From: Cavenderia fasciculata
Lineage: Eukaryota > Evosea > Eumycetozoa > Acytosteliales > Cavenderiaceae
NCBI RefSeq assembly: GCF_000203815.1
Contig: NW_004457735.1
Location: 1,798,001-1,862,000 of the forward strand
Reading direction: 5' to 3'
DNA length: 64,000 nt
Shown here piece after piece: positions 31,427 to 36,534 of this stretch. The notes under the pieces were generated by a model, which searched no databases, was not told where the DNA came from, and saw only the letters and a program-made list of their open reading frames with translations. The translations under genes were made by a program, and so were the position numbers. The stretch's first letter is position 1, and each line of letters opens with the position of its first letter.

Positions 31427-34400
31427 ATGAGTAGTAATAATAATCAAGATTCAATGCAGATTGAATCTTCAACAACTACCAACAATAATAATAATAATAA
31501 TAATAATAATAATAATAATAATAATAATAATAATAATAATAATAATAATAATAATAATAATAATAATAATAATAATAATAATAATAATAATAATACCACC
31601 TCTACAAATTTAAAATTGTTCATCCCTCGAGAGAAATTAGGTTGTAATAATAATAATAATAATAATAATAATAATAATAATAATAATAATAATAATAATA
31701 ATAATAATAATAATAATAATAATAATAATAATAATAGTAATAAGAATAACATCTTCGAGGGTCTTTACGACCCCGAAGATAACACAACACAACCCGATCA
31801 ACCTGAAAAAACACCATCCAACAAAAAGAAGCCTCCCAAGAGGAAAAAAATAGAATTCGATCAACCACCACCACCACCAAAACCAAAGGAGAAGAAGAAA
31901 CCAGTAAAAAGAGTCAAAAAGGACGACTCGACCACTTTTACATCTACCACTCCAATGGATCCTGATGATGATGATCAAACCATCTCTACAACTACAACCT
32001 CCTCCTCCTCCTCCTCCTCCTCCTCCTCCTCCTCCTCCTCCTCCTCCTCCTCAGTTGACCCACCGGTTTCCAAACCAAAGTCAAAGCCTGCTGGAAAGAA
32101 CAAGGCTCCAACGTCAAAGGCTGGGAAGCCTGCTGGAAAGAACAAGGCTTCAAACGCCAATCGACCATCAATCATCTTCAAAGAGGGTGAATCGTTACCA
32201 GACTCTCAATTATCATACACTTCATACGTAATGAAGTATCCAACAATTGTGAGTAACAAAACTCAAAAGAAAAAGAAGAAGAAAAAGAAATCAAACTCTT
32301 CATCATCATCATATTGGACGTTCAAATCTATGGACATTACAGATGACCAATCATCATCATCATCATCATCATCATCATCGTCATCGTCATCGTCAACAAC
32401 GTCCAACAATATGGACACTACAGATGACCAATCAACAACAACAACAACAACAACAACAACAATATCACCAGTACCAACAAACGACGAACTAATTCAGAGC
32501 ATTAGAAAGTTGGCCAATTTTATTGGAAATCAAACCACAACTTTTCTCAATCTAATAGCCACCAACAACAAGTGCTTTGAGTCAAATGGAACACCTGTTC
32601 CATTTGTTGTTAAGTTTTTTCAAACTCAATGCAAGCTTACTGAAAGTAAGTCAAGAAAAAGAAAAAGAAAAAAAAAGATAATGAATCAATCAAAAACTAA
32701 CTCTTTTTTTTTCTTTAGATCAACTAAAAGAAAATCTCACCACTTTTAGATTTGACAGAACGTCGATTGAATGGATGATAAGATACTTTGCTCTTGGAGG
32801 AGACGCTATTTTTTCAGCAATGGGTAAACATCCGGTACCTCGTATTGACACCGTGGAGGATCTATCCAATGATTCAATTTACTCATTGTAAGATTTTAAT
32901 TTATTTTAATTACCATAGTAGAGGTGGTTAGTAGTGTCTAAATTGGTGACTAATTTAATTTAATTTAATTTATTTTAATTTATTTCTTTGTAGATGCTTT
33001 TTCATGAAACATGTTGCTCCATTTTTGGAAAAAGAGATGCAAAAGAGACCCAAAATGCTTCAAATGCTTCAAAAGTTGAGACAGTTCCGTTGTAACAACT
33101 CAAAAAACTGGGTTAATGTGATCGTGATCAACATTAAAAATAATATCATGGTTTCAACTTGTATGTCATATAAATATATAAATATAGTTTTATGATCATT
33201 TATATTTTCCCTATTATTAATTCTTTTTTCTTTTTCTTTTTCTTCTTATTCTAGATAACCATTTAAAACAGTTGTTAAACACCTACAAGGATAGGAAGAT
33301 AAAGGATCTTGGAAAGAACCAAGAAGAAATTAAAAAGGTTAAAAAGTTGGTTCGTGATACTATTTATAATTTTTCTAATACGAGATTAAAAAGAGCTGAG
33401 AAAGACCAACAACCAGTTCAAGAAGAAGGTGAAGAAGATGAAGAAGGTGAAGAAGATGAAGAAGGTGAAGAAGAAGAAGATGAAGAAAAGAAAGCAGACC
33501 GTGTTGTCACATATGATCTATCAGATGGTGTCTACAAAACCATAGAAATCCTTGGTGGTAAGCAAAAAAAAAAACAAACCTATTTAATATAATATTCATA
33601 TATTAATTTATTTTCAATCTTTTTTATTTATTTATTTATTTATAGGTTATAACCAACAAGTTATTGATGAGTATAACAACTTATCAGATGACAAGAAGAA
33701 GAAAAAGGAAGCAAAATATGACAATCGGGTGAGCAGAAGAAAAAATATTATCAAAAAGAAAAAGGAAGATGCTCACAAAAGAAGGGAAGCTATCATAAAG
33801 GAAAGAAGAGAAGCTTCTATCAAGTTGCAAAAGTCCCCAAATACATCTTTGACAGTTGATGATTTGACAAACTCACCATCTTCATCACCCAACACATCTT
33901 CACCACGCAACCCAAAAGGTAAATTCAATCAAAGAATGAAACATGACAGCATTCGAATCCGCGAGTTGGATGAACTGAAGAAGATCACAATAGAGGCAGA
34001 AAAAAGAAATGCTGATCTCCAACAGATTAGCGATACCCGAACACCAACCGTGTTTATTCCCGGGCTCATCAATATTTCATCCATTATACCATCTCTTGGG
34101 TAGGTTAAATATATTTATATATTTATGTATCTATTAATTATAAATCAATGTATTAACTTTTATTATTATTCCTATTATTTATTCATTTTAATAGATTTGA
34201 TATCCAATTCATGTTTACAAGAGAACATGCTAAAAACCTTTTGAAATGTTTGGGTTTAAAAAAGGCCAATGTCGAAAAAGATCACGAGGGTAACCCAAGC
34301 TATGCCATCGCCACTCTCTTCCCAGGCTTGTACAAATACGATCCAAGGCTTTTCACAAACACCAAGAGGGTGTATCTTCCGGCCACCCCTCCCACTGATG

Positions 34401-36534
34401 TTGAAAAACAAAAGGATGAGGAAAGGAGGAAAACAAACAATGACAATAGATTTGCAAGCGTAAGTATTTCAATATTTATTACATTCACAAATTATTATTT
34501 CAATTACTAATTTTCTTTCTTTAGGCATTAAAGAAATATAAAGGTAATGAAGATGTGGCAAGGGTAGCTGCTACTTTGCAAACTGGAGAAAAGGCAAAGA
34601 ATGCAATTGAACAACACAACAAATTGCATGGTTTTAAAAAAGGATCTCATGATAAAAATCGAGCACTTCTTGCAAAAGGCACAATAACTTTTTCGAAAGA
34701 AGAAATGTTTCAAGAGATAGTAAACAAAGGAGTAAAGTATGAAAATACCTCAACTACCACTACACCATCTACTTCTTCATCTTCATCATCTTTACCATAT
34801 GTCACAGTAACATTCGACAAGAAGGTGTCTGTCACCACCAATGGTGCATCAGCCACCGTGACTTTTAGAACAATCAAGTACAAGCCTGGGAACAAACCCA
34901 ACAAGCTGTACAACAAGCAAGTTGCAATGGAGAAAGAATTTGCTGGAAAGTCTTTGAAGGATGTCATTGCCATTGGTATCGATCCCAACACGTGCTCAAT
35001 TACTGTCGTTAACAATCACGATGACAAGGTTCTGGACATGAGAATGGATACTCTTATGGTTAAAAGAAACACCAAGTTTCTTTTAGAGAAAATCTCTTGT
35101 CATATGGGAAAGGCCATCAAAAGTTTTGAATCCTGTTTACCATCTCTCAAGTGTATGTATACATTTTATAATATTTGTTTGTTTTATTTTAATTATTAAA
35201 TAATTATTAATTCATTATTTTTTTATTTATATATTTATATATAGTCAATGTCCTTAACCCTCAAACATTCCAATCTAGGCTGGACTATTATGAAAAGTAT
35301 TGTGATTATTTCGATATCTATTTCGAAGCCATCAATGATCCAATCGTACTATCTTGGAAGAGGAACTTTGCTTTCAAAAAGCAAAAGTTGAACAAAGAGT
35401 TTTACCAACAATTTGACAACTACATTCTTGATCTCTTTAAAGATCATTTCCCAACCAAGTATTCAAGTATGAACGATTCTGAAAGGAATCAGTACATTCA
35501 AGACAATACAATCATATGTATGTATTTATAAATCATTTTCAAAAAGAATATTAATGTATTAAAAAGTGTATATATATTAATATGTATTTTTTTTTCCTTT
35601 TTTCCTTTTCCTTTTTTTTTTTAAAATAGTTTTTGGAAATGCCAAATTTGGACACAACACTCGTGGCAAGGTAACAACATTTGCAGCCAAGACTGTTGCC
35701 AACAAGTTAAAGTCCAAACAATATTCCGTTGTCTATATTAATGAATACAACACGTCAAGAGTAAGTTTCTTAATTAAAATTATCATTTTATTTAAACATT
35801 TAATTAAATTTATTAATTCTCTTTAAACTTTTTAGCAACATTTTGATTGTTTTTTCCACCAAGAGGAGGAAAACTTGATCCATCATGACCTCAACGAACC
35901 TCATGAGGATCCAAAGGATGGTTTTCATCTGGAGAAATGCCATCTCAAGCTTGGTAAAGAAAAGGATGGAGGCCAACCGACCAATGTCCAACAGTGCTCA
36001 CCTATCAGCGAAGCATGTCAATCCGCTGCTAAAGGTAATAGTTTCCTTCGATGCAGTGACCACCGGCATCGTTTAGCACTCGTCAAGCAAGACACCCATT
36101 CAAAAGAATACAAAGAGTCGTTGGGGTTCCTCAAATCCATCGATGATTTGGACAAGAAACTCCAATCACACAATCTTTTGAATGTGGCAGGTCAATGTCG
36201 AACAAGGAAGGTGACACCGTCAGATGTTGCCGGTTCGGAGACTGAATCGCGTCAGGACTCTCAAAAAGTTGCCTCGACCCAATCGTCTTCGTCATCAACA
36301 AAAAAGTTCGACTATCGACACGGACAGAATAAATATGGTCCAGAGATTAGAAAAGCAAGTAAGTCCCTACACAACAAGCACAGAATGGCTGTGTCCTGGA
36401 AACGTGTTTTGTGCACTGGTTGTGGAAAAAGTTTCAACCGGGATGTTAATGCAGCACGTAATATGCTGCTACTTGGTATTTTTAAAGTTTGGAAAAATGG
36501 TCACCGTCCGTCAAGATATGGAAAGACAAATTAA
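31427..36534 (+). CDS. Fanzor (eukaryotic TnpB homologue, OrfB-type RuvC nuclease)
   Basis: Ten exons: 31427-32645, 32719-32887, 32994-33160, 33255-33557, 33646-34099, 34195-34459, 34525-35152, 35245-35517, 35630-35760 and 35836-36534. Every junction is GT-AG and keeps frame, giving 1435 residues. Residues 1-400 are low complexity: two long Asn runs, a Ser run, Lys-rich patches. The C-terminal half carries the split RuvC fold: IAIGIDPNTCSITVVNN (D1012), FFGNAKFGHNTRGKVTT, YSVVYINEYNTSR (E1198) and CTGCGKSFNRDVNAARNM (D1406), where C1396 and C1399 form half a zinc ribbon, and a NGHRPSRYGK tail. In the family these nucleases use an RNA from the element to cut DNA and are spread by transposons. 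As in other Fanzors the RuvC-II Glu sits in the EY-TS motif. The usual first CxxC after it is reduced to HFDC. All three acidic residues are present; activity is inference. Confidence 0.87.
31484..31735 (+). repeat. two long (AAT)n tracts coding poly-Asn
   Basis: Uninterrupted AAT trinucleotide runs at about 31484-31594 and 31644-31735 in exon 1 of the Fanzor gene encode about 36 and 31 Asn residues. Near-pure codon identity suggests recent slippage expansion. Similar but shorter runs occur in the WRKY gene (19055-19190 and 20505-20760). Confidence 0.95.

Follow-up and report, generated by a model that had tools for sequence, protein, structure and literature searches.

A multicopy Fanzor1-like gene of Cavenderia fasciculata, probably carried by a DFa/Sola2-type DNA transposon

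Introduction

Is a ten-exon Fanzor gene in a dictyostelid genome a single host gene that has been domesticated, or the cargo of a transposon that has moved recently? The question is raised by a 64,000-nucleotide stretch of Cavenderia fasciculata DNA (NCBI RefSeq assembly GCF_000203815.1, contig NW_004457735.1, forward-strand positions 1,798,001 to 1,862,000), hereafter the window, to whose numbering unlabelled coordinates refer. An earlier sequence-only reading had recognized there an intact gene of the OrfB/TnpB-Fanzor family that could be domesticated or still mobile. We reconstructed the gene, compared its protein with profile and structure databases, and searched the genome (31.0 Mb, 21 contigs) for relatives of the gene and of the element around it. 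We conclude that the gene is very probably Fanzor1-type cargo of a cut-and-paste DNA transposon of the DFa/Sola2 type, belonging to one (B) of three Fanzor families (A, B and C) that share a terminal motif in this genome. Comparisons with the literature draw on PMC3627910, PMC10432273, PMC11423790 and PMC10711439.

Results

An intact ten-exon gene of the Fanzor1 type

The exon model, derived from the DNA sequence alone, joins ten exons (31427-32645, 32719-32887, 32994-33160, 33255-33557, 33646-34099, 34195-34459, 34525-35152, 35245-35517, 35630-35760 and 35836-36534) into 4308 nt that encode 1435 amino acids and contain a single, terminal stop. Each of the nine introns, 65-112 nt in length, has GT-AG ends, and the unspliced stretch holds 66 stops in the same frame; our rebuilt splice thus reproduced the earlier join without a frame break. 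Behind a very long, low-complexity N-terminus, the protein carries a RuvC-I block, IGIDPN, with D1012, an FGNAKFG block starting at residue 1161, an INEYNTS block with E1198 and an RDVNAA block with D1406, so that all three acidic residues of the RuvC triad are retained, as had been claimed. Its zinc ribbon is built from three cysteines and one histidine (H-C-C-C): the first knuckle is H-x2-C (H1205, C1208) rather than C-x2-C, and 187 residues separate it from the second, CTGC (C1396-x2-C1399). A long tandem repeat of the ATCT type (about 31256-31400) lies immediately 5' of the start codon.

The profile search that the sequence-only reading had proposed as a check placed the spliced protein, queried with its homopolymer runs shortened, in PF07282 (Cas12f1-like TNB) at E 1.3e-7 and 32.1 bits against a cut-off of 26.3; in a six-frame search of the genome the last exon alone scored 24.8 bits, below that cut-off. 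Together with the motif blocks, this match upholds membership in the OrfB/TnpB-Fanzor family. The protein also agrees in part with the published Fanzor1/TnpB motif, D-X(125,275)-[TS]-[TS] followed two residues on by a C4 zinc finger and then by X(5,50)-RD (Bao and Jurka, PMC3627910): 188 residues lie between D1012 and T1201-S1202, and five residues separate C1399 from R1405-D1406. As the zinc finger is present but altered, we describe the gene as a Fanzor1-like variant. Fanzor lineages are characterized by DPG in RuvC-I and by an alternative RuvC-II glutamate (Yoon et al., 2023); the window protein reads DPN and family A reads DPG, and E1198, in the NEYNTS block, is placed as the alternative glutamate by motif only. 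Searches of viral contigs returned 12 pattern matches, none confirmed as a relative.

These features bear on whether the protein would still cut DNA. The asparagine that ends IGIDPN, the altered zinc ribbon with its 187 residues between knuckles and the very long, low-complexity N-terminus could all be signs that the element is mobile but its Fanzor is no longer a nuclease, serving instead as a passenger or as a regulator of transposition that acts by binding. We regard this as very unlikely: the three acidic residues remain, families A and C retain related blocks, and the active nuclease SpuFz1 coordinates metal through D383, N385, E541 and D606 (PMC10432273), with an asparagine two places after the first aspartate, as in the window's DPN. 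Because SpuFz1 uses both D383 and N385 for metal, the DPN motif is compatible with activity.

Six close copies with one right end and six flanks

PF07282 was found at seven places in the genome. Six, the window included, carry the 232-amino-acid frame of the last exon with equal score, and the seventh, L013, is diverged, with 87-89% identity to the window where alignable. The six close copies, which we call family B, end on the same base (36696 in the window): they are identical over the final 41 bases before diverging into six different right flanks. Over the longest match to the window, identity is 98.6-99.8% in the other five (C2, 3476 bp; C14a, 2586 bp; C14b, 6236 bp; C18, 5055 bp; C21, 1909 bp); towards the 5' side, C2 and C14a are 93-97% identical to the window or unmatched. 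The element therefore appears, from these copies, to be multicopy and recently mobile. The suggested check for further copies and terminal sequences thus yielded both, and of the two fates offered earlier, mobility is supported by the copies, their common end and their differing flanks; domestication is not. A further claim, that the introns point to a long residence, does not follow, since the splice sites are preserved in those family-B copies that cover them; introns common to the copies belong to the element and are uninformative as to how long this locus has been occupied. The multicopy state, the extent of the element beyond the gene (from 25766 on the left to 36692, or 36696 with its tetramer, on the right) and the H-x2-C knuckle go beyond the sequence-only reading.

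Three of the six family-B copies look open. The frames of the window and C14b are fully open at 1435 and 1436 amino acids; in C2, exon 1 is open with a different N-terminus and exons 2-10 align to the window free of gaps and stops. The frame shift of C18, within the AAT-repeat portion of exon 1, may stem from an assembly error; C14a has gained 18 bp by insertion in exon 4 and lost a net 41 bp in exon 5, and C21 is without the 5' part. The copies at C2:456167 (L008) and C14:1973623 (L009) have in common an N-terminus, encoded by exon 1, that differs from the one in the window and C14b, the remainder being nearly identical, a pattern that we read as a probable exchange of the disordered N-terminus.

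Synonymous changes are in excess in one comparison between copies. Over residues 407-1435, the window and C2 differ at 12 synonymous and 7 nonsynonymous codons, for a ratio of nonsynonymous to synonymous substitution rates (dN/dS) of about 0.16 (binomial p 1.1e-4); against C14a the counts are 16 and 12 (dN/dS about 0.21, p 4.3e-5, 14 gapped codons excluded), which does not add an independent comparison, as C2 and C14a are closely related. The long open frame and the signature of selection speak for a lone host gene domesticated from a Fanzor element. Against this, the selection signal was obtained by comparing the window with C2, itself a mobile copy; each of the six close copies has the exact right end of the element and different flanks; and the gene has termini of the element to its left and to its right. 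We therefore consider domestication extremely improbable.

Element termini and the transposase region

The element is best seen in C14b (C14:2921369-2934263), where both ends are present, 12.9 kb apart, reading ATTT-GAGCATTTATTTTC on the left and GAAATAAAGGCTC-AAAT on the right. Its terminal inverted repeats, GAGC[A/C]TTTATTT, match at 11 of 12 positions; those of the window element, which an assembly gap separates, match at 9 of 12. At the left end, 17 loci (20 given, less 2 without a readable left end and with 2 at the same place) show AAAT 14 times, ATTT twice and AATT once. AAAT stands at all 28 right ends reached by DNA searches, comprising 10 of the 14 matches in one search (the other 4 stop short of the end), 15 of 15 in a second and 3 of 3 in a third; a local alignment would stop before a changed right tetramer, which happened at none of the 28. 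The difference between the two sides is marginal (Fisher p 0.048), and many of the copies are related by descent. Where a transposase is expected, C14b has minus-strand frames of 385 and 411 amino acids, and window positions 27541-28275 are 82-85% identical in DNA to part of this transposase-like region in other copies; a 154-amino-acid open stretch there is probably a remnant of the transposase gene.

The gap and the A/B junction

To the left of the 100-N gap the window contains sequence of the multicopy family A; to the right, family B. We put at about even the chance that the window element is two different elements misjoined across the gap, a possibility under which the gene is real and which is compatible with its being transposon cargo. 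The family switch coincides with the gap, and no other copy read confirms the junction: 28276-30365 is unmatched in C2, C14a, C14b and C18, the four further B copies for which the left part was read. The stretch 28300-30193 recurs at 98-100% identity in 10 other places and partly, at 89%, in one more. Against a misjoin, both outer tetramers are AAAT, as in a single insertion, although this barely counts, AAAT being nearly fixed in these elements; and families with a common left part but different Fanzor parts have been reported (PMC3627910). At their left ends the window and C14b are 99.5% identical over 863 bp; beyond it, shared pieces of 465 bp and 517 bp show 89% and 85% identity.

Families A and C and an accessory frame

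Family A comprises 15 right ends, and family C comprises a relic in addition to 2 right ends. In family A, one right half (L068) encodes a distantly related Fanzor with IGIDPG, NEFNTSK and CPVCDHFFNRDTSAAKN, which shares 38% identity with the window protein across 61 alignable residues; in this family the Fanzor lies behind a related left end. The two contigs that hold the family-C right ends also carry left ends resembling those of family A, at C4:233230 and C18:719056. By eye, the zinc-ribbon region of C resembles that of A, and the H-x2-C first knuckle recurs in both, as TSK-IHNAC at a splice junction. In the family-A part of the window, reading frames (Table 1) are kept at 98-100% DNA identity between the window and 10 other family-A places, and relatives 47% identical occur at C4:230254 and C18:723142, between the ends of two family-C elements. 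These frames probably represent an accessory gene borne by the transposon; the stretch 29613-30224 had no match in Pfam.

A candidate guide-RNA scaffold in the 3' tail

The tail of the element with the adjoining flank (36535-36711) folds at -30.8 kcal/mol, compared with -22.4 for shuffled sequences (z -2.63). Within the tail, pairing can form between ATTTGGGCT (36566-36574) and the terminal GGCTCAAAT, and it is possible in all nine B-type right ends counted (the six copies with L013, L046 and L021), which are closely related and not independent cases; the B-type ends C5:3498222 and C14:1471840 are excluded from the count. In L013 one pair changes from U-G to C-G. Fanzor1 reRNAs run about 15 nt beyond the target-site duplication, and the terminal inverted repeat and the duplication are predicted to lie within the scaffold (Yoon et al., 2023, PMC10711439). 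A scaffold that ends at AAAT, with the flank as guide, is a lead, for which the terminal pairing is suggestive only.

Other explanations of the tail were set aside. An intron at about 36581-36687 (GTATGA, TACTAAC, a pyrimidine tract and AAAG in the terminal repeat) gave way, by eye, to a better-fitting hairpin, because L013 shows an altered branch-point-like motif with an additional AG behind it but retains the GTATG/CATAC arms. An AATAAA polyadenylation signal that would set guide length was also considered; the terminal repeat itself includes AATAAA, a hexamer probably frequent in DNA this rich in A and T, so its conservation cannot be separated out.

Table 1. Features of the element and its surroundings in the window
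Feature	Positions	Strand	Basis or remark
Left AAAT, putative 4-bp target-site duplication	25762..25765		
Left terminus GAATATTTATTTTC, family-A type	25766..25779	+	
Family-A left part of the element	25766..30365		Genome searches with 25766-26650 and 28300-30360
154-amino-acid open stretch	27700..28164	-	Probable transposase gene remnant
Accessory reading frames, family A	28889..30224	+	Relatives in family-C elements
100-N assembly gap, family-A sequence joined to family-B	30366..30465		
Fanzor1-type gene	31427..36534	+	10 exons, 1435 amino acids; spliced frame, motif blocks, PF07282 match
Element 3' tail, candidate guide-RNA scaffold	36535..36696	+	Predicted from fold and pairing
Right terminal inverted repeat	36681..36692	+	Reverse complement GAGCCTTTATTT; six-copy alignment
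Right AAAT, putative 4-bp target-site duplication	36693..36696		
Flanking DNA, putative guide of the window copy if the scaffold ends at AAAT	36697..36711	+	Right end, fold and PMC10711439

Neighbouring genes

The nearest long frame to the right of the element, about 730 bp past its end, belongs to a multi-exon gene (37425-40088, plus strand) with an HESLGH motif, as in dipeptidyl-peptidase III. Further to the left, a plus-strand frame of 1018 amino acids (18956-22012) contains two stretches, WRKYGQKNVKG and WRKYGQKAVKG, WRKY-like by motif, amid long runs of asparagine, histidine and glutamine. Proteins of the window are asparagine-rich.

Discussion

If the gene is transposon cargo of this kind, its Fanzor1-type product would be an RNA-guided DNA nuclease in which the RuvC triad cuts DNA. 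Its guide RNA would be transcribed from the 3' tail of the element, across the right end and into the flanking DNA, with the scaffold ending at AAAT and the adjoining flank serving as the guide. The nuclease would then cut the empty site after excision, or an unoccupied allele, and repair would copy the element back into the cut site. In this scheme the guide RNA, cleavage, target motif and repair outcome are all predicted, and we lean towards RNA-guided cutting programmed by the flank. A further elaboration, unlikely though worth stating, would make the Fanzor gene an exchangeable module: families A, B and C would carry variants with the insertion-split H-x2-C/C-x2-C ribbon behind related left ends, the right AAAT would be locked because it forms the last scaffold pairs, and each copy would be programmed by its flank to restore itself at an empty AAAT site.

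Several results weigh against reading the gene as Fanzor1-type cargo of a DFa/Sola2-type transposon, or against the mechanism proposed for it. The 432-amino-acid C-terminal part of the protein had no match in NCBIfam at E up to 1 or in a PDB sequence search at E up to 10, and a PDB search with rough pieces of family A returned two unrelated matches at E 0.6 and no Fanzor; with no relatives in either database, family membership relies on one short Pfam domain and on motifs, among which H-C-C-C stands in place of the C4 zinc finger. Left and right tetramers are unequal in C14b (ATTT and AAAT) and in the element at C1:108731-116659 (AATT and AAAT, its ends paired by nearness), so that a simple 4-bp target duplication is not demonstrated in these two. 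The transposase-like frames of 385 and 411 amino acids in C14b had no match in Pfam, and the label Sola2 is borrowed, by analogy of anatomy, from the description in PMC3627910. Across the whole frame, 5 nonsynonymous codon changes and not one synonymous change separate the window from C14b, differences that do not favour selection and are too few for a conclusion. For the scaffold, shuffled tails paired equally well at p 0.017 and 0.019 in the two tails tested, a weak result, and families A and C lack the terminal pairing, the best reaching 7 of 9 in A (shuffle p 0.96) and 6 of 9 in C (p 0.99). Finally, the right junction itself keeps AAAT and the guide-matching flank, so self-cutting would need some means of prevention.

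We nevertheless favour the transposon reading: the locus is best described as a live-looking multicopy Fanzor1 transposon of a published kind and not as a domesticated gene. Several close copies in a dictyostelid genome offer a tractable setting for asking what Fanzors do for transposons, and as each copy bears a different candidate guide, homing or self-restoration could be addressed copy by copy.

Comparison with known systems

The closest published counterparts are DFa-1, DFa-2 and DFa-3, three Fanzor1 families in Sola2-type elements of Dictyostelium fasciculatum (Bao and Jurka, 2013, PMC3627910). As described there, these elements have terminal inverted repeats of 12-13 bp and 4-bp AWWT target-site duplications; their 5' regions are nearly identical over 2.5-3 kb, their Fanzor parts are mostly without similarity, and the transposase, 888 amino acids long in DFa-2, is mostly deleted in DFa-1 and DFa-3. 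Our elements resemble them in comprising three families, in terminal repeats of 12-13 bp and AWWT end tetramers, in combining left ends that are related with right-hand Fanzor genes that differ, and in the reduced transposase region of the window copy; the match is one of described anatomy and not of sequence identity with DFa-1, DFa-2 or DFa-3. They differ in that the near-identity of the left ends of the window and C14b is confined to the first 863 bp, and in the likeness of families A and C around the zinc ribbon, and they include, in A and C, an accessory reading frame.

RNA-guided cleavage has been reported for Fanzor1 (PMC10432273), and the window protein shares with SpuFz1, GtFz1 and PpFz1 the D-E-D order of RuvC residues and, after the glutamate block, a TS pair and a zinc ribbon (PMC10432273, PMC11423790). 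Compared with characterized Fanzor1 proteins it has an H-x2-C first knuckle, 187 residues between knuckles and no PDB sequence match, and it is far longer than most Fz1 proteins, which have 600-700 amino acids (PMC11423790). The Fanzor1 reRNA of SfAV has a proposed scaffold containing the terminal repeat and target duplication, with its guide taken from the flank (PMC10711439), an arrangement that in the window is predicted only. The general system, Fanzor1 in a multicopy Sola2-type transposon, thus appears in the 2013 description (PMC3627910), to which, as far as the literature consulted goes, the present locus adds open copies, a selection signal, a gap-spanning A/B junction, an altered zinc ribbon, a candidate scaffold pairing and an accessory frame.

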